Below are positions 1,886 to 23,450 of a stretch of DNA of 23,450 nucleotides, piece after piece. Positions within the stretch are counted from its first letter, which is position 1. Each line of letters starts with the position of its first letter. Origin of the DNA: Saccoglossus kowalevskii (Eukaryota > Hemichordata > Enteropneusta > Harrimaniidae); contig NW_003123408.1 of NCBI RefSeq assembly GCF_000003605.2, positions 366,356 to 389,805 on the forward strand. Reading direction: 5' to 3'. The notes under the pieces were generated by a model. That model searched no databases and was not told the DNA's origin. It was given only the letters and a program-made list of their open reading frames with translations. The position numbers and the translations under genes are program-made.

Positions 1886-2057
1886 ACAAATCCGAATATA
1901 AACATTAAACTTACTACATTCAATATTGGATAAAGTTAAAACATTACACGCAACTCACTGAAAGTTGGAGGCAGCAACAGAGCTGCTTTGAACAACAAAT
2001 GAACTGGTCTGAAGTACAAGGTCATCTTTGTGATTCATCGTTGAATGGCGACCACAG

Positions 2058-2126
2058 ACTCTGCAATCTCAATGGTATTTACTGTATTAACAGAGTACAG
2101 ATGAAAATACACATTGAGACTGGAGT
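2058..2126 (+). ncRNA. miRNA-like hairpin A
   Basis: First of four related hairpins. The 5' arm contains ATCTCAATGGTATTTACTGT and the 3' arm contains ACAGATGAAAATACACATTG followed by AGACTGGAGT. Pairs run CTCAATG/CATTGAG, then GTATTT/AAATAC, then CTGT/ACAG at a 4-base loop (ATTA), with small internal loops. Length (69 nt) and interrupted pairing resemble a pre-miRNA. Transcription and strand are not shown by sequence: one A.C mismatch here would be a G.U wobble on the minus strand. Confidence 0.55.
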
Positions 2127-2230
2127 GTAAGTAGTCTTCACAGCAAACTTGTCGATAGATCAAAGTATCTTTCCATGACTTCAAGCTTCAATCAATGTTA
2201 TCTTGCTGTACAGGTGTTTGAAGACACTTT

Positions 2231-2294
2231 CCAGTCAACCTGAATGGCATTTACTGCTGTGAATGTATGCAGTGTAAAGTGCCATTTAGGCTGG
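2231..2294 (+). ncRNA. miRNA-like hairpin B
   Basis: Second hairpin, 64 nt. CCAG is closed by CTGG, CCTGAATGGCA by TGCCATTTAGG, TTTAC by GTAAA and TGC by GCA, with bulges of one to three bases. This is the clearest pre-miRNA-like fold of the four. The 5' arm CCTGAATGGCATTTACTG matches the arm conserved in the other three hairpins. Its G.U wobble favours the plus strand. It is followed at 2291-2302 by a 12-base palindrome, CTGGCCGGCCAG. Confidence 0.6.
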
Positions 2295-2451
2295 CCGGCC
2301 AGAGTCAGTCCACACAATATATCCATCACCCACAAATCAAATGTTTTAGAAACTTTGCGCACAAGTTATGCCTGAAGTAACAACTCCCTGAAAAGACTAA
2401 CTACTAAACTTCCTTTACTCAGAAAATCCAGAAAGTCGTCTTAGTGATAAA

Positions 2452-2521
2452 CGCTCTAATCTCAGTGGCATTTACTGTTCTTTGGCTAAAACAGATGAAA
2501 ATGCACACAGAGATTGGAGCG
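2452..2521 (+). ncRNA. miRNA-like hairpin C
   Basis: Third hairpin, 70 nt. CGCTCTAATCTC pairs with GAGATTGGAGCG over 12 positions with one wobble (plus strand). Inside, GCATTT pairs with AAATGC and CTGTT with AACAG. Where hairpins A and D have a T-A pair (GTATTT/AAATAC), this one and B have C-G, a compensatory change. Confidence 0.6.
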
Positions 2522-2569
2522 GCCAACACAAAATTAGATTAGAAGACTTAAACTTGCTTGGAAGGACCA

Positions 2570-2641
2570 CCCTGCAATCTGAATGGTATTTACTGTATAG
2601 ATTGATACCAACAGATGAAAATACACATCCAGACTGAAGGG
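2570..2641 (+). ncRNA. miRNA-like hairpin D
   Basis: Fourth hairpin, 72 nt. The outer stem is CCCT/AGGG, then TCTG/CAGA, where A and C have TCTC/GAGA (a C-G to G-C swap that keeps pairing). Inner pairs are GTATTT/AAATAC and CTGT/ACAG. Two A.C mismatches would be G.U wobbles on the minus strand, so strand is undecided. The 3' side is about 50 bases from the NTAQ1 poly(A) signal. Confidence 0.55.
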
Positions 2642-2689
2642 TATGCCCCAGGAGAATCTACATCTTTGATGATTAATAAAAGACAGGAC

Positions 2690-2695
2690 TTTATT
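2690..2695 (-). terminator. poly(A) signal of NTAQ1
   Basis: TTTATT on the plus strand reads AATAAA on the minus strand. It lies 175 bases past the NTAQ1 stop codon and is the nearest canonical signal on that strand. Confidence 0.6.
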
Positions 2696-2870: not shown

Positions 2871-5237
2871 CTAACCACAAGAAAAATGAAAATTAAAAGC
2901 TTGAAGTGTCATTACTTCCCCAACACCAAAGGAGGGATTTACTGAGATGAAGTCGTTCAAATTCATAATTGATTCTGAAGGATAAAAATAAAGTTTGATA
3001 TTAGGCACCTAGTTTAACTTCTGTTATAAAATTTTATTTCAAACTTTGTCTAAAATTTTATTTACCGTACATTTACTGTTGAGGGGACTTGCCTTTTGTC
3101 TGAATGCACGGGTAGATGGGAGGGGGTGCTAACCATTGCCCATCCTTCAACATGTGCGACCTGTCAGACGCAAAAGTTTCCAGGTATTCGGAAGCTCTGA
3201 TCACTCTAAATTTCCTAGAACGGAATATAATGCACGCAATGCAATCACAATCTAAGCAAAACACTTGTTATCATTCAAGTTTTATCTTGTTCATGTATCG
3301 AGTTTAGAGATGGAAAGATCCTTACCGATGATACTGCTGTTTTAACTGCTCATTACGAAATGTTTGACTGGAATAATCCAAGAATGGGGTCGGAAATTCA
3401 AGGACAGAGTCAAGATCATAAACTTCAGCATTCCCAGTATTACTTTTCTGTATTAATATTACGTGGTAATCCTTAAAAATATCCAATTAACTTAAAAATG
3501 TAACATTGAAAGATTCAATAAATTTAATTGGGGTTCTTTTTTTCTTTCTGTAGACTTGCTTAACAAGTCTATGCATGCATTTATATGCTATGAACAGCTG
3601 TTTATCATACTAAAGAGCATGCACTAACCAAACACTTTTAAAATAATGCACTTTTGTCATTTTCAACGTTTTTTCAAAAGACTTCAAGGTAATTATTAAC
3701 TTTGCAATCAATTGTCAATTTTTAACTGTAAAACTTGAAACCTACCCAGACAACAGGTACATCGGCACTTTGTGCAGCTTTTTGCATCCACAACGGAACC
3801 TACAATTTTAAATGATTGCCATTTATTTTAGATTTGAAAGAATCTTAACCATAAAATCAAATTGTAAATAGAAAATAATTAACTTACTGTTTTGAATTGG
3901 TTTGAAATGAAAACTGCATAACAATCTTCAATCAAATCTGGGTATCTGCTTTGAACATGCTCGCACAGCTTCCACACATTTTCTTCACTATCAAAACCAG
4001 GGAAACGGAAAAACGTCATTTACGAAGACGTAAACAAACCAGGATGATTCAAGCACAACAACCGAATTTAAATTGGCATATTGCCAGAATCGTGTAAAGG
4101 CAATATTCTTTTGCGTGCCTATCAAATTTGTTACAATTTTCCCGCGCGTTTTTGGTCACACTGAACTGCGCCACTGAATTTGCATTTTTTTTACACAGTA
4201 AAACACAGTGTGAAACTGCGTCATTAACAAATTCCGACTTAAAAGAAGGCGCCAACATTCAATTTTACTTCTATTTTCAAAGCACAATTCATCAAAGTTT
4301 GCGGGAATAACTGCGTATGTGAACTAGGTCATCGACGCTCGTAGCTACGGAAAAACCGTTCCATTTTCGGTAATTTATGCAAATTGATTCAATGCAGTAC
4401 ATTCATCGACTCTAATAGAGTTGAATAAAAACGCAGCAACAAATCAGCGTAACATTGAACACTAAGAGAAATACTACTCTAAATCTCATGAATGAACATG
4501 TACGGCTTTCAAGAACACCCAGGCCAATTGTGTTTATGCAAATGTTTGAGGCCTCTCGGTAGTAAACATTTCGTAGTAGAAAAATGGACGACACATGTTG
4601 GGCTCTTTCAAACAAAAAAACACAATTTCAAATGTTAAAATTATCACCACTCTCTTTTAGAAATTAACAAAAAATTGTTTTAATATTGTTGACGTTATGT
4701 ACAATAATATATTATTGAGTTATGTGTGGCCGAAGACTCACTTTATGTCGTTTTTCACGACTTTCGTGTACGACTGTTACAAATTTACGAGTATTTTTCA
4801 AAATGGATGGTGAACAATAACTTTTACACATGTGGGTTCGAATACGTGCAACAAATGACTATAGAAAAATAACACCACTCACCAAAACAATCCTAGACGG
4901 TCGGTAAATTGCCAGAGAAAATTTTCAAAGTGGAATTGTTTTAAAAATGTACGTTTTTGGTCGTTCCCGCGCTGTGTACCACGAGGCCAAAACCCACGCG
5001 ACGCTACGTACTGTGACCCTTGGCCCTCAAAATGCTAACGACTCTCTAGGCGGGAGTCTCAAAATTCGTTTTGTAGATAGAGCAAGTATAAGTGAATTTT
5101 ACAAAATCTGTTCCAAATTATTCCTAAATATGTCAGAATGGTGGTATGACATATCGCGCACAATTTACTCACCAATAACAGGACGTATAAATGCATTCTT
5201 CACGAGGCGGGAACAGAGACCCACATGCTCCAGCCAT
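2871..5237 (-). CDS. NTAQ1: Protein N-terminal glutamine amidohydrolase (NTAQ1/WDYHV1/tungus), complete, six exons, 196 aa
   Basis: Deamidates N-terminal Gln of proteins to Glu, feeding them into the Arg/N-degron pathway; a cytosolic/nuclear enzyme. Minus-strand coding exons: 5237-5173, 3987-3888, 3799-3746, 3471-3326, 3214-3093, 2974-2871. Frames join exactly to 196 residues plus TAG, against 205 in human. Landmarks: YTSCYC then EENVWKLCE at the N-terminus, WDYHV at 73-77, YDLD at 91-94, [20 protein letters not shown], and MNLNDFIS near the C-terminus. The family's Cys-His-Asp triad maps to Cys22, His76 and Asp92. Start 5237 is chosen because it is the in-frame ATG leading into the conserved Cys motif. 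The Cys22 codon is split by intron 1 (TG|T). Introns 1-4 are GT-AG; intron 5 (3092-2975) appears to be GC-AG. It is head-to-head with ALG13. Identity rests on family motifs throughout and is very secure; the extreme C-terminus is the least conserved part. Confidence 0.95.
2975..3092 (-). other. GC-AG intron (NTAQ1 intron 5)
   Basis: On the minus strand the exon ends ACAAAAG and the intron begins GCAAGT, the strong consensus typical of GC donors. It ends in TTATCCTTCAG. Splicing here joins a phase-1 boundary and restores the conserved MNLNDFIS segment. Without splicing, the frame stops after about seven unrelated residues (GKSPQQ then TAA). Confidence 0.8.
3988..5172 (-). other. NTAQ1 intron 1
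   Basis: An 1185-bp intron. The donor ATTG|GTGAGT and the acceptor GTTTTGATAG|TGAAG are both good. No repeat or gene was recognised inside; open frames within it have no visible homology. Confidence 0.8.
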
Positions 5238-5585: not shown

Positions 5586-8500
5586 GTGAGTCATGATGTA
5601 TAATCACGCCCGTTAACATGATTCAGAACCATATATATTGACCAACACAGACAGAAACACAAAATTATTGAATGCGTGTATTTGATGGCCGTCCTTGACA
5701 GAAAAAGCCGTTAATATCTAAAACCGCGGGAAGACCCGTTACGTCAGGGTTACGTAATATACTAGTAGTTTGGGTTACAGACACGAATTTACAAAGCCAG
5801 AGCGCGTCCTACGTGTATCTTGTCCGTTGTCGCCAAGAAAAAAATGCCACAAAATCAAAATAAATTTCAGTGATAGTTGGGCACGTTTTCACAACTGGTG
5901 GGTGACAAATGTTCAATTTTACCAATAATACTCGTTTCTATGGCAACGTCAGTAAACAGAAGTGCCACTTTCAACTGAAATGTTGCCGATCTTTGTGTTT
6001 CATCTCTCCATTGAGCTAAACATTATTCAACCTCAAAACGTAGTGGTCTGAGATTCAAAAACACTTTTGAATAAATAAAAGTTGTTGAGATTAAAATCTA
6101 AATAATTTACTTAATAGTTCAACTGTTGAACATTTATACTTACAGGTAATTATTAAATTATGAAATCCATCAATAACTCCTTCAACCTGGACTAGTTCTT
6201 CCTAGCATCATCTTGCTTGCTTGTCCATAATCTCTAGTCTGACCTTGATAACTCATAACAACTAACAGTAACCTTGTTAGAAGAGATTCAATGCCATGCT
6301 AGTCTGAATGTGACTGTGAACCATACAAGATTACTCATACCCTTATAACACTCTTAACTTAAAATCCGAATGTGCTACATTTTCACCTGTTGCGAGTGAA
6401 TTTTTCCGCTGGTGATTCGTCCTCTAGGGTGAGTCACTCTAAGTATGATTCATTCTTGGGTGGAATAATTATATAATTATAATAAAAAAATAATAATTAA
6501 AATTTAAATGAATGTTTTTTTACATTACCCCCTTCTGTGTTTTTATAAGATAAAACCCATGATAGTATTGGATTCTTCAAAGTTAATTTCTCTCCAAACT
6601 ACAGCCAAAACAAAGTCAGCTTGGACATTCAGTTGCGAGACATAACAAAAAAAACGCAGCCAGTGATACATTTTGAAAATAAAAATACAAAATAAACGCA
6701 ATCAGAGGCGCCGACCACGCACGTTGGTAATAACTAGAACGCGTTGTGACACAGTCTCACCAGCCTCTTTCACAGACGCAATATAATTATGCTATTTCCC
6801 AACGCACTTATATTTAATACATTGACGAAAAACACCACAAGAAAAATGTAAATCAGGCTTGTAATTACTAGTAACTCAACTTTTCATCACTGTAAAAGTG
6901 GATAAATTCGAATCAGCCAGCTCATGACCGGAGACGTCCACTCGTCTTCATTGATAACTCGCCAATTCACCATAATCGTGGTGGTGAACTGTTTAGCTGA
7001 TATTTCAAAAGATGGAGATTCAATTCATATTCATCCCAACTTATTTGAATATTCTTTCGGAAATTTGAGACATTGTTCAAAAAATCCTGTACAGCTATAT
7101 GTCTGATGTCAACTGATAATACGTAATTATCCAGCCAGTACTAGAAATTATTGCTGATAGTAAACATGTTTTGTATTAGGAAGTTGGATACTCGAACGTG
7201 TAGTTCCCAGGCGTGTAGTAGACGAGCTTAATCATACTGTCACATGTTTTTCGTCTTAGCCTTCAGTGGCGGATCCAGAGGGGGGGGGGCATGTCCACCC
7301 TCCCAAATGCATGACGATTCATATCATCTGGATTACGCATAGCTTCTCTGCGATTTACACTCCATATATCTTTAGCGAAGCTTGGACCCCCCAATACATT
7401 TTGCTGGACCCGCCACTGTTAGCCTTGTCTTTTCGTCTTAACCGTCGCAGCCCGCTTCAATTGAATGTTTAGTTTGATAATTTATAAACGTATATTCAGT
7501 GTCAGACTGCTGCTTTCAAGTTGTGTTAATACAAAGATGATTTAAACTTGTCCCTTTCTTTGCTAGCGTATTCAATATACGGAAATAGCATGCGTGTGTG
7601 CATTTGCGCGAGTGAAAGATGCAGGTGAGATTTCTCGTCGCAACGCATTCTATTTATTTCCAACGCGCGTGGTTGGCGTCTTTGATTGCGTTTATTTTGT
7701 TCTTTCATACTCAAAATCTATCGCTGGCACCGTTTATTTTGTCATGTCTCACAACTGAATGTCCAAGCTGACTTTGTTTTGGCTGTAATTCAGTCATGTC
7801 ATGTACTATCCTACTCAAACAGAAAGAAACTACAGAAAATAAATTGACTTCAAGTTTAGTTTTCAAGATCACCTCACTAAAAGTTAGTACAGTATTTTTA
7901 TATTGACAATTTCAATATGAACAAGGCCCAAAGATAAAAAAAATAACATTACTATCAGTAATTTCCCAAACCTTTTAGAAAGGAAGCTGAAATATTGTAT
8001 ATTTACTCATTTCTGAAGAATTATCATAGATTATCAACATTTTAGATGGATATTAGACAGAGGTATTCAGAAAAAATAAAATTTAATTCATTTTAAATTT
8101 ATACCTCTGAAATTAATTATTTCTAAAGCAATAGTAGTGATCAAGATGTGATTCAATAGACAATACACAAAATAGTGATAGAGGTTAAAAACAAAAGATT
8201 TATTTCTTTTCTCTTTGAGTGCCAACACAAGGCACCATAAAAAATACATGTAGTTTCATTTATATCTAGTCTGCTTTTTTCTGCACAAAAAGTTGCAATC
8301 AGAAACTGGAAGCAATGTCACACTTTGTTTGTTTGGTTCAAAATTAAGATTGAATTCAGAGAGAATTACAGAAAAAGTGAACAAGTTTACCTCAATTTGA
8401 AACAAACTTGCATGGCACCCAAGCCCTGTAGAAAATGGGTGAAAGGGGAATCTGACCAAGTGAATGTAAATACACGGTCTAATATTAAAATTGCACGACA

Positions 8501-11500: not shown

Positions 11501-14500
11501 AAATCAAGTCCACAAAACTAGTTTTAAAGAGTTGATTTTGTTTTACAGCAACTAGAAAGTCTTGGTTTCACCCGATTGGTACTACAGATTGGACGTGGTC
11601 AGTATGAACCCGAGTCGTTCATTAAACCAAATTTTCGTATGGATGTCTATAGATTTAAGGATTCTATTGCGGATGACATCAAGGGTGCTTCACTTATTAT
11701 CAGCCATGCAGGTAGAAACTACTGTAAAATAATTTATTTTTGCTTGGAATTAATTTTTTGCTGAAGGAATGATTTAGTGAAAATAAAATCCAGCAAATGT
11801 ATCTTTTTAGCTCTGCTGTCGACTTTGTCGAGCGGAGCTTATCATATGAGTGATTGTCCGCCGTCGTCCGTGTCAATGTTTTACTTTTTCAACTTCTTCT
11901 TGAAAACTACAAGCCTGAATGCTTTGATACTTGGTGTATATGTACCGTACCTTGGGTGGACCTCTCTTAGGTTTGCTCATTTCATGATGATATCTTCAAT
12001 TCTCTAATTTTGGTGAATATTTTTGTCATTTTTGGTAAAAAGTGATATTTTTGAATTCTTGTTGAAAACAGCAAGTCCCATTGCTTTGATACTATACATA
12101 TTGTTCATTTTCTAATGATATCTTCTGTTCTTTAATTGAAATGTGCATTGCTAACAGTGGAGCTATCTCAGCCGACTGGCAGCTTGTTTCCTATATTTTA
12201 CATTCAACTCAGTCAAAAATCAGTGAAAATAAATTCCATACAAAACACCCAAAAAGTCTTTTCAGCGAAAATTAATTCCAGCTAAAATAAAGTATTTCAC
12301 TTTACTAAGCTTCTTTATATTTAGGGTGCATTTTAATAATTTTGTGATACACACGATTGCTCCTTTATTTGGAGGTAGACTCTTGTAATAGATTTTCTGA
12401 AATGTGTATGTTCATGTAAGTCTTATGATGCCTTTTCATTGGTTTGATTGAGAATGATCCTAACATAAAATACACATTTACAGACAGTTTTACTTTCAGA
12501 AGGTTTTGCAACTTGCATTAAAGAGCCTGCCTAAAGACAGTTCCCGTTTGTTCTTATTCAAAAAACAAATGCACACATTCACAGTAACAAAGGATTTTCA
12601 TTTCAGTTCTTTAATTTACTTTGTCAGTTGTTTTGCGTCATGGATTATTCTAATTCAGCTCATCTATGACTCCTATGTCATTTACCATATGGCTGCCATC
12701 ATCAAGAGAAACGATTCCTACTTATTTGATGCCAGTTTTATTTAAAATTGCATATTCTGGTTGTACCAGATATAAAAAGATGGGTTCACACAAAAAAAAG
12801 GTCCCTGATATTGTTAAGTATTGCCATTTTTACGAGTAGACTTCCATGTGCTGAGCTGCATACAGTGATGTGAAGAAGTGAATATATGGAGGGGTTTCAC
12901 AAATGCATTTAATAGCCGGCCATCATTCTGTAACAACAGGCCAAAAAAAAAAAGGCTCTCGGCAGTGTGAAGCGCTTCAGCGAGACGGGTGTAGGCCAGC
13001 TGTTAACGAAACCCCCGATAATAATAATAATAAAAATAACTTTATTGCCTCCGTGTAAAAAGATTTACATAGGATTTACATACATTTACATACTGCAAAA
13101 AAGAGTTTTAAAATAATAACAAGATATATGTAAGAATTGTACAAAAAACAAAACAGAAGAACTTAACTACGATAGTATTTAAATGTTAAATCAATCTTTT
13201 TGTTGTGTAAATATAATTGGCAAGTTCTATAATTATGCCAGGATCTTTGCTTGAGGGTATATATGTGAACTGTATATTTTTTATTATTGGATGAAAGTAG
13301 TGTAATAATTTTTTGGATGAAATTTTTCCTGTGTGTGTTATATTTTGGGCAATTCAATAGAAAATGTTCTTCATCTTCAATTCAATTTGTGTCACAGTTA
13401 TTGCATATTCTTTTATTTATAGATTTCTTAGGAAATGAATATCTGTCTTCCTCTATTGCCAAGTTATGGCTAATTCTAAATTTTGTCAACATTTTCCTCT
13501 GATGAATGTCAAGTTCATTCAAATATGGCTCAAAGATGTATTCTGTTTTAAATTTAGCACATGTTCTCAGTTTGCTATTTTCTAAATTATTTCTTTCCAG
13601 AAACTGGTATACCAGTATTTATTTTCAAGGGTAGTTTTTAAAATTTGATTAATTTGATTTTTTTTGTTTGATAGCGATACGTCAAGATAAACTATTTGTA
13701 ATTTCTAGTCATGTGATCAACTGTCCAGTTTACTGTAGGGGCTTTGTTTGACATGTGTGACATTCCCCACCTTGGCTGCATCCATTTAAATGTGTTTATC
13801 TCAACCACACGCTTCATACACATGCATGCACATTGCTATGTTTTGTATTGGAAACTTATCAAATGCACATATTTGTGGTAACCACTATAAATATTTACAT
13901 ACCTGAACAAAGGAATTACAAGGGTAAGCAACTAAGGTATCTATATGTGCAGTGATGTGCGATGATATGCGAAAAAGATCCTGTTCTGTGTGAATATCAG
14001 TCGAACCAATTATCCATGTATTCAAAAACTCAAAACTCACATAATACATGCTTCGATTTGAACAATTCATCACATCGCTTGATGAAAGCCGCCACGGTAA
14101 TATCAAAATCTTTGTCAGCAGGGGAAAAGTAGGTCAAGACGACCACAATTTCATTCACAGACTTATTTATTAGTATTAATAGATGTATGTTTTTGTCCTG
14201 CAATCATTTCACAAATTGTATGACTTCATATTTAGATCTTAATCGAAAATCACACCCTTTTTCACAGTTCCCTGTTTGTACACATGAACAAGGAATGTGT
14301 GCAATTGATAAAATATGGACAGGCATATGAAGAGACCATTTTCCGTTCACTGCGAGAATCACGTGTTATGCGTGAAATCGAACGTAAAAACAGGACAAAC
14401 AAAGGTCATAGCGTCGTAGTGGCGTCAAACATCGCGTGGGATTCGACAAACGCAAAAATATTTTGGGGGACATTTCCATGCTTAATAATATGCTGTCCAC

Positions 14501-16027
14501 ATTTGATGATAGGCAATTTCGATTAAGTGAGAGTATTCGGAAGCAATATTCCTCTGTCGAAGATCGGCCGGTCGATGTGAGCTACGAAATAAAGAAATTC
14601 GAGTTGAAACTCAAATCGTTCTATTTTTACAGCAGACGTTCGACGCGCGTCTTTCATGCATCTCACGAGATCTCGCAATTGTACGGAAAATCACCTATTT
14701 CAAGCCATCAAAATTGTTAATTGCTAAATAATGTTATTAAATTATACCACTGTTGTCTTAACCTTTTAACAACCAGACTTTCTCGCCACACAATTTTTTA
14801 GAACTTTTTTCTTGTATTTTTCAATATTTTTGGAAATGACACAATTTGAATCAATTTTCAGTTTTTACTCAAAAAATTTGGCTATTTTTGTCCCAGTCTT
14901 CTTAATGAATGTGCAGACTATAAACAGAACTATTTTGTCATAAAAAGAGGTAACTGGTGGTGAAAATGTTAATCTCATAGACATTGGGAGTAATTAACTT
15001 ACATGGTATTCACCCAAAAATATTTCCTCTCCCTCAGGTGCCGGTAGTGTATTAGAAAGTCTTGGTGCTAAGAAACCACTGGTGGTGGTAATCAATGAAC
15101 ATTTAATGGGTAACCACCAGATAGAACTTGCATATAAACTCTACACAGAGGGACATCTACTCTATTGCACTCCTAGGTTAGTGGAACAATATCATAAATT
15201 TTTATAAATGAAATTGTCACAGTGGAGTTTTCATTGGAGTCCTTAGACAGATTGCGTGCATATACCCGGTAATTAAAGATACTTAAAAACTACATATATT
15301 TGAATATATTTTGCGGCTATTCAATGTTTGTGGAAACCAAAATTAGAATAGGTATGTGTATACAAAAGTGATATGACTGAGACGTCATGTTCATTAGTGG
15401 CGTCATCACCCAGCGCCCCTAGAGGCAAAATGATGCCAGGCAAAGAGAACGTTTCGCTGACCAATCAGAATGCAGGAACCGTTACTAGTTACCTGCCCCT
15501 TGTGGCTTGGTACGCCATGACACTTGAGACGAGAACCAGCCCAAAGAGAACTTTTGTCGTCTACTCGTTTTATACCAGATACCCCCCCCCCAGTATTTTG
15601 GGCATTTCGCAGCACAAACGGATGTACGGAGTGACAAAAGCCAGACCTCTGCTCACCCTTTAATGGTTTAGGGTATTGTTATCACAAAAACATAGGGGAC
15701 GGGCAGTTCTCATATTTTCTTCGGATTTGAAATTTTCAACATGCGAGGTAACTTTCCGTGGACATGTCACAATTTTTTTTAGATGGGCTACTGGTAATTA
15801 AAAAACAAAAGCATGCCAAAACAATATGAAAAGTCAGACATACCATGGTCGTATTTGTTACAAGTAAGTAACATTATGTCAAATCCCAAACATAATGACT
15901 TTTTCTTCTTTACAGTGAGTTATTGAAGACATTACAAGATCTTGATGTCTCCAAACTGAAGCCATTCCCTCCTGGACAGCCCGAGAAGTTTGCTGCCTAT
16001 GTTGATCAGTTCTTTGGATTGTCATGA
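5493..16027 (+). CDS. ALG13: UDP-N-acetylglucosamine transferase subunit ALG13, complete short form, four exons, 168 aa
   Basis: Catalytic subunit that, with membrane-bound ALG14, adds the second GlcNAc to GlcNAc-PP-dolichol on the cytosolic face of the ER in N-glycan assembly. Exons: 5493-5585, 11549-11711, 15038-15176, 15916-16027; all introns GT-AG and phases join exactly. Landmarks: VFVTVGTT at 8-15, [22 protein letters not shown] at 83-89 (nucleotide-sugar binding loop of GT-B/GT28 folds), VVVINE then NHQ (111-113), and PPGQPEKF near the C-terminus. Length matches the 165-residue human short form. There is no OTU or Tudor extension. An ATG at 5511 gives MVFVTVGTT; the in-frame ATG at 5493 adds six residues and has A at -3 and G at +4, so either may be used. 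An out-of-frame ATG at 5485 lies just upstream. ALG14 is not in the window. Confidence 0.96.
5586..6599 (+). other. ALG13 intron 1, 5' part
   Basis: Starts with the donor AGA|GTGAGT. No exon, RNA gene or clear repeat was recognised up to the long inverted repeat at 6600. A run of AT-only sequence lies near 6460-6530. Confidence 0.6.
6600..7788. mobile_element. long inverted repeat of about 1.2 kb (foldback-type element)
   Basis: The left arm (about 6600-6893) is matched in reverse complement by the right arm (about 7500-7788). The outer ends are nearly identical for about 40 bases, sharing ACAGCCAAAACAAAGTCAGC and then TTGGACATTCAGTTG. Identity drops inward to roughly three quarters by eye. 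The spacer of about 600 bp holds a separate nested MITE (7264-7418). No transposase frame is seen. It is either a non-autonomous foldback transposon or an old inverted duplication. Lying in an intron, its transcript would form a long imperfect double strand. Confidence 0.75.
7256..7426. mobile_element. hAT-type MITE, 155 bp, with 8-bp target-site duplications
   Basis: The element 7264-7418 begins CAGTGGCGGATCCAG and ends CTGGACCCGCCACTG, so the 15-bp terminal inverted repeats differ at one position. It is flanked on both sides by the identical 8-mer TTAGCCTT (7256-7263 and 7419-7426). An 8-bp duplication and CAG...CTG termini are the signature of hAT superfamily elements. Too short to code for a transposase. 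The intact duplication suggests insertion later than the surrounding inverted repeat. Confidence 0.9.
7789..10112 (+). other. ALG13 intron 1, central part
   Basis: No gene recognised. Around 9770-9875 a short motif recurs (AGAAGCAGCATCC, AGAAGTCGCACCC, AGAAGCCGCAAACC), suggesting a fragment of a dispersed repeat. Open frames near 8256-8519 and 9424-9678 show no recognisable protein. Confidence 0.5.
10113..10527. mobile_element. TTAA-flanked non-autonomous DNA transposon, 407 bp
   Basis: The element 10117-10523 is flanked by TTAA on both sides (10113-10116, 10524-10527). Its ends are AGACCCA and, reversed, AGGCCCA. Next to the left end lies a strong hairpin (10121-10153): CCAATTCACTTGCCC opposite GGGCAAGTGTGAATTGG. 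TTAA duplications are typical of piggyBac and Kolobok superfamilies; which one cannot be decided. No transposase is encoded. Because TTAA is common in AT-rich DNA, the matching termini carry most of the argument. Confidence 0.6.
10528..11548 (+). other. ALG13 intron 1, 3' part
   Basis: Nothing recognised beyond the acceptor TTTTGTTTTACAG before exon 2. Minus-strand open frames at 10533-11162 have no visible homology. Confidence 0.6.
11720..12307 (-). mobile_element. palindromic CTGTAAAA MITE copy 1 with a nested insertion
   Basis: Both outer parts (11720-11804 and about 12190-12307) match, in reverse orientation, the intact copy at 16138-16349, including the segments TGGGTGTTTTGTAT and TCAGCAAAAA. 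Between them lie about 385 bases not present in that copy. The insert starts with AGCTCTGCTGTCGACTTTG and includes a CCGCCGTCGTCCGTG tract; it looks like another dispersed repeat. The MITE begins 8 bases after the exon 2 splice donor of ALG13. Confidence 0.75.
12891..13016. repeat. short inverted-repeat element with GGGGTTTC ends
   Basis: GGGGTTTC (12891-12898) is mirrored by GAAACCCC (13008-13015), and AGCCGGCC inside is mirrored by GGCCAGCT. A poly(A)-rich tract and GAAGCGCTTC lie in the middle. It directly abuts the LINE tail at 13017. Possible MITE; no target duplication was found. Confidence 0.4.
13017..13690 (-). mobile_element. 5'-truncated LINE (non-LTR retrotransposon) fragment
   Basis: Read on the minus strand, it ends in a TTATTATTATTATTATC tail (13017-13034), typical of LINEs with microsatellite 3' ends. 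Upstream is the C-terminal part of a reverse-transcriptase polyprotein (13618-13163), with [18 protein letters not shown] and a preceding [16 protein letters not shown] motif as found after the RT domain of many LINE ORF2 proteins. The frame carries an in-frame TGA at 13384-13382 and a probable frameshift near 13618, so it is dead. The RT domain itself and the 5' part are missing. Confidence 0.85.
13163..13618 (-). pseudogene. degenerate LINE ORF2 C-terminal region
   Basis: 152 codons in one frame, interrupted by the single TGA at 13384-13382 and ending at TAA 13165-13163. A Cys-x2-Cys followed 14 codons later (counting the TGA) by a further Cys, within the EDEEHFLL context, matches the zinc-finger-like tail seen in many LINE polymerase proteins. 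It sits in ALG13 intron 2, antisense to that gene. Non-functional. Confidence 0.8.
13905..14180 (-). other. coding-like segment of unknown origin, antisense in ALG13 intron 2
   Basis: On the minus strand an open frame of about 57 codons begins after a TTGCAG near 14210 and includes [17 protein letters not shown] and [11 protein letters not shown]. It is followed by an overlapping second frame ending FVQ at a good donor (CAG|GTATGT at about 13904). Base composition is richer in GC than the flanks. No family was recognised, and the two frames do not join without a shift or a small intron. It may be a decayed gene or transposon piece. Confidence 0.3.
14338..14700 (+). repeat. duplicated unidentified sequence, copy 1
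   Basis: Matches 16816-17155 in the same orientation over roughly 340 bases, with near-identity in stretches such as GACAAACAAAGGTCATAG and TTCGACAAACGCAAAA. On the plus strand it reads as two overlapping open frames (from 14284 and to 14720) offset at the TTTTGGGGG run near 14460. Conserved peptides between copies include TNKGH and STNAK, then KSF, FHA and ISQL. Differences between copies are mostly non-synonymous in either strand's frame, so selection as protein is not supported. Family unknown. Confidence 0.55.
15177..15915 (+). other. ALG13 intron 3
   Basis: A 739-bp intron, donor CCTAG|GTTAGT and acceptor CTTCTTTACAG. The segment 15373-15663 is less AT-rich than its flanks and contains an open frame without homology, plus a run of C residues near 15583. 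It may be a repeat fragment; none was identified. Confidence 0.7.
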
Positions 16028-16815: not shown

Positions 16816-17155
16816 ATTTTAGTTCACTGCAAGAGCCCTCATTATGCGTGAAATCGGACACAAAAACAAGACAAACAAAGGTCATAGACTCGTAGTGGTG
16901 TCAAACATTGTGTGTAATTCGACAAACGCAAAAGTATTTGGGGATATTTCCACGCTTAATAATGTGCTGTACACATTTGATGTTGTTTTATTTTGATGAA
17001 GTATGGATATCTCAACACACTTCTGTAAGATCAGCCTTTCTACATGGAGCTTTTCAAGTTCAAGATAAAATCGTTCGATTTTTGCGGCAAACGTTCGGTC
17101 AATGCCTTTCACGCAATGTGCAAGATCTCGCAGTTGAACAAAAAATTACCTATTT
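16816..17155 (+). repeat. duplicated unidentified sequence, copy 2
   Basis: Second copy of the sequence at 14338-14700, here downstream of ALG13. The stretch to about 16998 is in one frame without the extra base of copy 1 at the G run, then meets a TGA. A later frame carries the counterpart of the FHA...ISQL segment. Both copies are therefore broken as proteins, at different places. Confidence 0.55.
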
Positions 17156-21244: not shown

Positions 21245-21367
21245 ATGGCTGAAACAATCAAAAAGAAAGTGACCGAATTACGCGTTATAGATCTTCGTGC
21301 TGAACTTGAAAAGCGAGGCCAGGAGAAAGCAGGGATCAAAGCAGTTCTGATCGAAAGATTACAGAAG
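21245..21367 (+). CDS. first coding exon of a SAFB/SLTM-like SAP-domain protein (41 codons, rest beyond window)
   Basis: Encodes MAETIKKKVTELRVIDLRAE followed by LEKRG and an AGIKAVLIERLQK tail, then a donor AAG|GTAAAC in phase 0. The motif LRVIDLRAEL-x(7-10)-G-K-x-VL-x-RL is the SAP DNA-binding helix pair, and the wording closely matches the N-terminus of scaffold attachment factor B and SAFB-like transcription modulator, where the next residues (AIEDEGG in human) start a new segment. Those proteins bind scaffold/matrix attachment DNA and, through an RRM, RNA in the nucleus. The RRM is not in this window, so assignment rests on the SAP domain; Acinus or hnRNP U are less similar by memory. 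Start ATG has A at -3 and G at +4. No exon 2 was found in the remaining 2.1 kb. Confidence 0.78.
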
Positions 21368-23450
21368 GTAAACTTAATTTTTGTACTTTAATTTGGCGAT
21401 TTGCGTGGAATTGAACCCTTGTTGAAAGAATCCAATATGGCGTCGAGACGGAAGCATGACTGATGAAAAATAAAACAAATTCTCAATTTTTGGAAGGAAA
21501 TAGTTCGACTTTATGTTCTTTGATAGGCATGTTTTTTATTGAACCAATCGTGAGTTGTATTGTAGTATATTTAATGGCAATGACAACGTTTAAATTTCAT
21601 AACAAAGTGAAAAATGATCGGGTCCAATGAAGGCTGCCCACAATGGTTCTGGGTGGGGTGTTTAATAGTAAAAGCACCTTCATGTAAATATCCACGCGAA
21701 TTATTTAGCAGTATCGTCGCAAAAGTAGCAGAAATGTTAAGCATGTTAGTTGTTGAGATTTATAATGTTCAACAAATAATTCAAAAAAGTTGGTTTACTA
21801 GTAAAAAAAATTGTGATAAGGCTTGTCATAATTTAAACGTCACATTTGTAGTGTTTTTAAATGGATCTGACCAAGGTCATGTTTTCACTCTGCTATTTGC
21901 ATATTATTATTGAAAATGTAACATTTCGTAATTATGTGAATGTATTGTGTAATCATATTGTTTATAATTATTACTGTTTTGTCTAAGTAGTAAGTTCTGT
22001 GGTCTGAAAACAATGTCATTTGATGTAAGATAACTAGTTGTTTTGCTGCTGCGTTTTTCTCGACAACCATTTTGAATCAGATTTATGTTTCTCAAGGAGA
22101 TTGCATTCCAAGTATTTTTGAACAATTTACCCATTTGTCACTGTTTCGTGCATCAATTCTGTCATAATTTTTAGAAAATTTCATTTTTTCCCTTATTTCT
22201 CCAGGTCAAAATTAGGTTGTTCAGAGTAACCAACACCTGTTCAAGGTTTATTGTGGCTTGTGTAAATGGGCTTAATTGCTTTCATCATTAAAAGTGTTGA
22301 AATTCACTTTCATCTCCAGATTGTTTCTCATCTGCTGAATTACTTGTGTAAAATGCTCAATCATATGCCATTCATGCAGATTTTGATTTTACTATCATTT
22401 TTGCTATTTTGATCCAGTTGAAAACATTAATTTTTGTGTAGTGTTACTTTAGATCTGAAAAGTCACTTCTAAATGTGGAACGCAACCAGGCTATCAAATT
22501 GAGGAACTGCTGAATAGCGTACAAGAAATACATAATTACTAACAAGGTTGTAATTTATCTGTTTTTGGAATAATCAAAATCTGTTTACTAGTAATTGTTT
22601 TTCAATGCAAAATGACAGAAGTCGTAACTAAACAAACTCAAAAGGTAATTAAATTGGTCAAGTGATGTGCTCATGTTGGTTGACAGCTTCTATTTTGGGC
22701 TATGCATGTACTGTAAAATGACTAATTTTCACTGGGTTTAAATTTCACTGATTTACCATTTCAGGCATATTCAGTGGGTCTTAAATTCACGGTTTCGTCA
22801 TTTAGGTAATGTGTCTTATGCTAAATTTTACATATTCACTGTGTTTTAATTTAGCGCATTTTTCCAGTCAGCGAAATAAGCTAAATTAAAACCCAGTGAA
22901 TAATTACCCCCTTTACAGTATTGGTTTTCATTTCCACTTTTAATTTCATGTAGTTTGCATGCATGCAAGGAAAGGAAAAGCAATTGTAGTTAGTTGACAT
23001 GATTGGTATCAACTGTGATTTCCATTATGGAAAAAGTTCCTTAAGGCTCCTCTTACCCTAACACTACACAGTGTAATTCATTATGTCTCCTAAAAGTGAC
23101 CCGAAGAGGGGTATACAGAATTGGGGAGGGGGGAGGCGAATTATTGGAATTATAGGTGAGAAGCTCAAGGACCTCTTACCTCAACATGGTTTTCACAGTG
23201 TTCCAATATTTTCATGATTTGTTTCCAAAACTACTTATCATTTCTCTTGATGATCATAATAATAAGCGTTTTCTGTGTTCTCCCCAGGCCTTTCAAGGAC
23301 TGCAGGCCCGCATCGCTTAGACAAACAGCCGCGTCGCTTTTGTTTCGCCCGCGATCCTTGAAATCCTGCCCGCGATGCTTATTCACGTTGTATTGTTTAC
23401 AGTGTCAGCCTCGTCTAGCACATCTTTAAACAATAACATGTATTGATCGA
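21368..23450 (+). other. first intron of the SAFB/SLTM-like gene (continues past the window)
   Basis: At least 2083 bases. No segment encoding the expected acidic continuation was found, so exon 2 is probably outside. Contains the MITE at 22709-22920. Near 23290-23385 a less AT-rich stretch holds CCCGCATCGCTTAG and CCCGCGATGCTTAT, possibly a repeat fragment. Confidence 0.6.
22709..22920. mobile_element. palindromic CTGTAAAA MITE, related copy 3, 212 bp
   Basis: Begins TACTGTAAAATGACTAATTT and ends with TTTACAGTA. TTCACTGGGTTTAAATTT on the left is mirrored by AAATTAAAACCCAGTGAA on the right. Termini resemble the copies at 11720 and 16138, but internal sequence differs, so it is a related rather than identical family. 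TA lies at each outer edge. Confidence 0.7.

Follow-up and report, generated by a model that had tools for sequence, protein, structure and literature searches.

Genomic context of the hairpin cluster

The window analysed here is a stretch of 23,450 nucleotides from the acorn worm Saccoglossus kowalevskii (contig NW_003123408.1, positions 366,356 to 389,805), numbered from its first letter. At its left edge, a reading frame on the plus strand terminates with a stop at about position 78. The main subject of this report is a cluster of four hairpins that spans 2057-2643 and lies downstream of NTAQ1, on the strand of that gene (minus). NTAQ1 is the N-terminal glutamine amidase (the cut-off of Pfam PF09764 is exceeded by three of the four upstream exon fragments that were tested), and its 3' end comprises the following features.

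2871-2974, minus strand: last coding exon of NTAQ1, 34 residues and a stop codon (2873-2871), read by eye.
2690-2695, minus strand: AATAAA, the last NTAQ1 poly(A) signal before the cluster, about 50 nt before hairpin D.

After this signal, the minus strand has no other AATAAA until 1822, beyond hairpin A. The last NTAQ1 intron (2974-3093, minus) presents an apparent GC donor (AAAG/GCAAGT) and an AG acceptor, and the preceding exon ends at 3093.

Two further genes are encoded on the plus strand, namely one that we take to be ALG13-like, for which the PF04101 cut-off was passed by two of four exon fragments (one fell below it and one had no match), and a gene with a SAP domain that begins at 21245. 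The third ALG13-like exon is flanked by a direct repeat of about 160 nt (14366-14528 and 16842-17002, 78-87% identical). An inverted repeat of 154 nt, 86% complementary, occupies 6597-6750 and 7637-7790, and its two copies, 886 nt apart, probably represent the termini of a mobile element.

Four paralogous hairpins

The initial annotation had described four paralogous hairpins, all in the same orientation, and these are indeed present, as listed here with the products predicted on the minus strand.

2057-2129, minus strand: hairpin A, last in minus transcript order; predicted 3p 2085-2064 (ACAGUAAAUACCAUUGAGAUUG), predicted 5p 2120-2095.
2229-2300, minus strand: hairpin B; predicted 3p 2257-2236 (GCAGUAAAUGCCAUUCAGGUUG), predicted 5p 2291-2267.
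2450-2523, minus strand: hairpin C; predicted 3p 2478-2457 (ACAGUAAAUGCCACUGAGAUUA), predicted 5p 2514-2489.
2568-2643, minus strand: hairpin D, first in minus transcript order; predicted 3p 2596-2575 (ACAGUAAAUACCAUUCAGAUUG), predicted 5p 2634-2609.

The length of the 3p product was set by us at 22 nt, and its start at the base before CAGTAAAT. Exact 13-mers that recur less than 700 bp apart number 13 in the window, 12 of them inside the cluster; this recurrence is beyond chance, since 100 dinucleotide-shuffled windows contained 0.65 of them on average and never more than 5.

Conservation across the four copies is highest in the minus 3' arm, which has the consensus ACAGUAAAURCCAYUSAGAUU and in which CAGUAAAU, on the loop side, is invariant. 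The other arm (minus 5') is common to A, C and D, where it keeps an unpaired UCAU. For each of the two arms, a repeat search returned a direct repeat with three copies, one in each of A, C and D and in register with one another; hairpin B was not recovered among these repeats, and its minus 5p arm is unlike that of A, C and D, with pairing retained. This agrees with the earlier statement that A, C and D share a second arm whereas that of B differs and yet pairs.

With 2-nt overhangs, the predicted 5p product has 25-26 nt; the two arms are separated by 9-12 nt, and the lower stems are paired. In canonical animal microRNAs, some 16 or more pairs are expected to join the arms, around a loop no shorter than 8 nt, and reads should show arms of 20-26 nt with 2-nt 3' overhangs and homogeneous 5' ends. 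In the cluster, the predicted 5p and 3p are joined by 19 consensus pairs, which, like the 9-12 nt that separate the arms, is in line with the expected pairing and loop. A bulge of one base and an internal loop of 4 by 1 in the consensus make the predicted 5p longer than usual, at the upper end of the 20-26 nt range. The CNNC motif, an aid to Drosha in some animals, was searched for as well, and no consistent placement relative to the hairpins was found.

Compensatory changes and conservation profile

In the minus-strand alignment of the four copies, 95 of the 100 cells of the consensus structure are standard pairs, a value reached by none of 500 shuffles, and sliding the partner by 1-3 columns reduces the paired cells from 95% to 30-45%. 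Paired substitutions had been reported previously, and both examples named then (GTATTT/AAATAC against GCATTT/AAATGC, and TCTC/GAGA against TCTG/CAGA) are among the changed pairs. Altogether, both partners have changed, with pairing kept, in 8 of the 25 consensus pairs, compared to 2.8 +/- 1.3 in the shuffles, none of which (0/500) reached the observed number. Similarly, the covariation score was 0.340 vs 0.150 in shuffles (0/500 reach it). The number of additional pair types gives a weaker signal, as 22 of 500 shuffles reach the observed value. In hairpin B, the pair adjoining the first named example is G-U on the plus strand and A-C on the minus strand.

Conservation, which was measured among the four paralogues only, is concentrated in the arms. 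Identity reaches 0.85 in the 3' arm, and 1.0 in CAGTAAAT, and 0.72 in the 5' arm; the lower stems have values of 0.67 and 0.47, the loop 0.30, and the outer flanks 0.24 and 0.17. The divergence of loops and flanks noticed at first sight (0.17-0.30, against 0.72 and 0.85 in the arms) is thus quantified, and conserved arms with diverged loops and flanks form the profile expected of a microRNA family. In these tests of structure and conservation, the cluster looks like a microRNA cluster, albeit one with a long predicted 5p and a strand asymmetry that differs from hairpin to hairpin.

Other structured RNAs may also be considered, such as hairpins repeated along an extended NTAQ1 3' UTR or within some other noncoding RNA, which would bind a protein or steer 3'-end processing. 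The location is in favour of such elements: the AATAAA at 2695 precedes the cluster by about 50 nt on the strand of the gene, and, with the next AATAAA at 1822, a longer 3' UTR would include all four hairpins. However, protein-binding hairpins often conserve their loop, whereas a diverged loop between two conserved arms is a microRNA trait; moreover, zero Rfam families of any type match. We consider such elements quite improbable.

A different possibility is that a near-palindromic cluster is used from both arms or from both strands. It draws on the retention of both arms, unpaired UCAU included, in A, C and D, and on hairpin B, whose remade minus 5p contains AAUGGCAC while its other arm keeps the CAGUAAAU seed. 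We would accord this dual use only a small probability. The retention of the other arm in A, C and D, which is not required of a 3p guide, was counted against a minus-strand microRNA cluster with a 3p guide.

Folding and the probable strand of transcription

The hairpins are near-palindromes and can fold on either strand. Against 200 dinucleotide shuffles per hairpin and per strand, folding z-scores were -4.4 (A), -4.4 (B), -6.1 (C) and -2.8 (D) on the plus strand, and -5.4, -3.9, -6.1 and -6.0, respectively, on the minus strand. One shuffle in 200 folded as well for B and one in 200 for D, both on the plus strand, and none (0/200) in the other six cases. All four hairpins thus fold both ways, with the stronger consensus on the minus strand and a better fold of B on the plus strand.

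Indeed, the consensus fold reaches -29.7 kcal/mol on the minus strand vs -23.2 on the plus strand. Individual hairpins are mixed: A is nearly even (-24.0 minus vs -24.9 plus), as is C, with its z-score of -6.1 on each strand; B is better on the plus strand (-24.9 minus vs -30.7 plus); D, with -28.3 kcal/mol on the minus strand vs -18.3 on the plus strand, contributes the largest share of the difference. The preference is therefore for the minus strand by the consensus and D, and for the plus strand by B. Single folds with flanks of 0, 10 and 20 nt sum to -114.3, -142.8 and -149.8 on the minus strand, and to -110.5, -128.1 and -140.0 on the plus strand. This asymmetry is modest, and much smaller than that of the let-7 hairpin of the same genome, which folds at -53.6 on one strand vs -34.4 on the other, 19 kcal/mol apart.

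A hairpin model built from the cluster scored A, B, C and D, all of them training members, at 89.7, 79.5, 77.4 and 86.2 bits on the minus strand, and at 31-40 bits on the plus strand. After these four, the next-best match in the window obtained 11.5 bits (E 0.4). Elsewhere in the window, a strong hairpin with 29-bp arms, 90% complementary, and a 12-nt loop (22833-22902) is among the strongest folds; its match to the cluster model is not convincing (9.4 bits, E 1.6).

The initial annotation had assumed a microRNA cluster on the plus strand. In such a cluster, the guide would be either the 5p AAUCUSAAUGGYAUUUACUGU or the 3p ACAGAUGAAAAURCACA. All four hairpins do fold on that strand (z -2.8 to -6.1), B clearly better than on the other, and CAGATGA, which is loop-proximal on the plus 3' arm and common to A, C and D, offers a possible seed. 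On the contrary, the consensus fold is weaker there, D folds 10 kcal/mol worse, the 5p seed region varies among the four copies, and the 3p seed is absent from B. Transcription of the microRNA cluster from the plus strand is consequently held to be unlikely, and the earlier orientation is to be corrected in that the stronger consensus structure is on the minus strand (-29.7 vs -23.2 kcal/mol). The minus strand is more likely to be the transcribed one, because its consensus fold is stronger and because the invariant part of the best-kept arm falls at the 3p seed position.

Copies elsewhere in the genome

Near-palindromic tandem copies can arise without any function, and the cluster might be a functionless repeat, that is, a local and decaying array of a palindromic element or a MITE. 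The genome searched comprises 572,110,611 bases in 4830 contigs. The 584-bp cluster used as query gave one match, itself, so that the hundreds of dispersed copies that would have indicated a MITE or a tandem repeat were not encountered in this 572 Mb genome. The conserved 21-mer occurs 19 times with up to two mismatches, four of these occurrences being the cluster itself; the 15 other sites, with one or two mismatches, compare with 3 for the reversed pattern, which is an argument for a repeat. With E values up to 10 allowed, the hairpin model matches none of these 15 loci, two of which include some N, and their 90-nt folds are weaker, from 0 to -20.2 vs -24.5 to -31.7 for the cluster. Over the 12 core letters of the partner arm, these loci exhibit 4-7 mismatches; the true copy B has 5, so B-like copies are not separable by this measure. 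Tandem Repeats Finder did not find a tandem array at the cluster. Further copies were not found in the flanking DNA, a result of little weight, as 26,035 of those 30,000 bases are N.

The flanks of the four hairpins are also unrelated, and pairing was kept through changes on both sides, which both argue against a repeat. With one match of the cluster, 0 of 15 loci fitting the model and no array detected by Tandem Repeats Finder, the alternative of a MITE or tandem palindromic repeat raised by the initial annotation is not supported, and we regard it as even less probable than a structured element of another kind. Based on the full-cluster and 21-mer queries, and very diverged copies aside, a dispersed family is unlikely.

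Two candidate relatives within the window were also considered. A possible fifth, decayed copy at 2719-2753 in the NTAQ1 3' UTR resembles part of D in both directions, but its scores (25 and 27) are within background and it has no model match. Indeed, local alignments between the hairpins and the rest of the window yield best scores of 24-27, scattered and on either strand. An origin from the last NTAQ1 exon, in which the minus-strand CTTCATCTCAGTAAATCCC recalls the joined arms, was rejected as well, as the local alignment with the window did not single it out.

The mitochondrial contig of the same assembly (17,037 bases) carries COX1 on the strand opposite COX2 and COX3. The 10 ATA codons of COX1 fit Ile, and its single AAA stands at the first place of a KK-E stretch, where Lys is expected. 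For S. kowalevskii, PMC3121625 reports the COX1 inversion, AUA as Ile and AAA as Lys, so that this contig points to the same species.

Relation to known families

At gathering scores, Rfam 15 (4227 families, those derived from miRBase among them) produced zero matches in the window; the let-7 of the same genome exceeds its Rfam cut-off (67.4 vs 53.5 bits). Weak matches in 1700-2800 number eight, including mir-2013, MIR3627, mir-605 and snoR101, with a best score of 19.2 bits vs 70. These families were rejected, being far below their thresholds, and none of them matches more than one hairpin. We know of no microRNA with the seed CAGUAAA. According to PMC11701678, the processing for Rfam 15 covered every miRBase alignment, and roughly 200 of them were left out, mostly because they consisted of a single unique sequence. 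A miRBase family with four such members would thus be expected in Rfam. Taken with the absence of any Rfam 15 match, this suggests that the cluster is probably not a miRBase family. It is thus likely new relative to miRBase families, a statement that covers neither MirGeneDB nor sequences left ungrouped by miRBase.

The arm strings, written in RNA or DNA letters, were not found in the PMC literature, a collection with few supplements and outside the sequence databases. The microRNAs of S. kowalevskii have already been surveyed, as PMC3247247 and PMC3145563 indicate, both of which cite Campo-Paysaa and others (2011). In the portions of PMC4592253 available, the microRNAs of the sko-mir/mir-4818 to mir-4823 range appear by name only, and in those of PMC8728216 no acorn worm is named.

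A putative microRNA cluster

A microRNA cluster, on either strand, is the best explanation of these observations and a quite probable one; its restriction to a lineage is probable too. As to the more specific form with a minus-strand transcript and a 3p guide, we favour it with some reserve. The candidate microRNA family of the initial annotation is accordingly retained, as a microRNA cluster is still the best explanation and the repeat alternative is unsupported, whereas its strand is likelier minus and its guide likelier 3p. The evidence base consists of four paralogous sequences from one genome.

Under the minus-strand reading, a primary transcript would be produced either as a longer NTAQ1 3' end or as a transcript of its own. 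Drosha would cut at the base of each hairpin and Dicer near the loop, and Argonaute would retain the 3p strand, of which the 21-letter arm consensus given above represents the sequence. All four 3p products would have the common seed CAGUAAA, so that messenger RNAs bearing TTTACTG sites may be repressed.

Lineage-specific microRNA families are used to trace how animals are related, and for the chordates the hemichordates form an outgroup of key importance. If the proposal is true, a four-copy family would supply a further marker for hemichordates, and an example of a new microRNA family expanding through local duplication just behind a protein-coding gene. Should MirGeneDB or a list for the species already contain it, the cluster would be ordinary.

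Comparison with known systems

Among families considered above, mir-2013 (RF03853) is a microRNA precursor family whose entire length aligns with hairpin C on the minus strand; however, the score is 19.2 bits vs a gathering score of 70 (E 0.64) and hairpin C only is concerned. AAUGGCAC, the start of the miR-183/263 family (seed AUGGCAC), is contained in the predicted minus 5p of B (2267-2291). However, AAUGGCAC begins 5 nt inside the predicted 5p of B and is absent from A, C and D, and no Rfam family matches the cluster at its gathering score.

MicroRNA families restricted to Saccoglossus exist in miRBase and MirGeneDB. The cluster would share with them both the species and the gene class, if it is a microRNA cluster, and no Rfam 15 family matches it.

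Compared to canonical animal microRNA clusters, the cluster differs by its predicted 5p of 25-26 nt and by a strand asymmetry far below that of let-7. It resembles them in its hairpins, which are imperfect, about 75 nt long and paired in the lower stem, with arms conserved and loops diverged, and in the presence of several paralogues on one strand within less than 600 bp.
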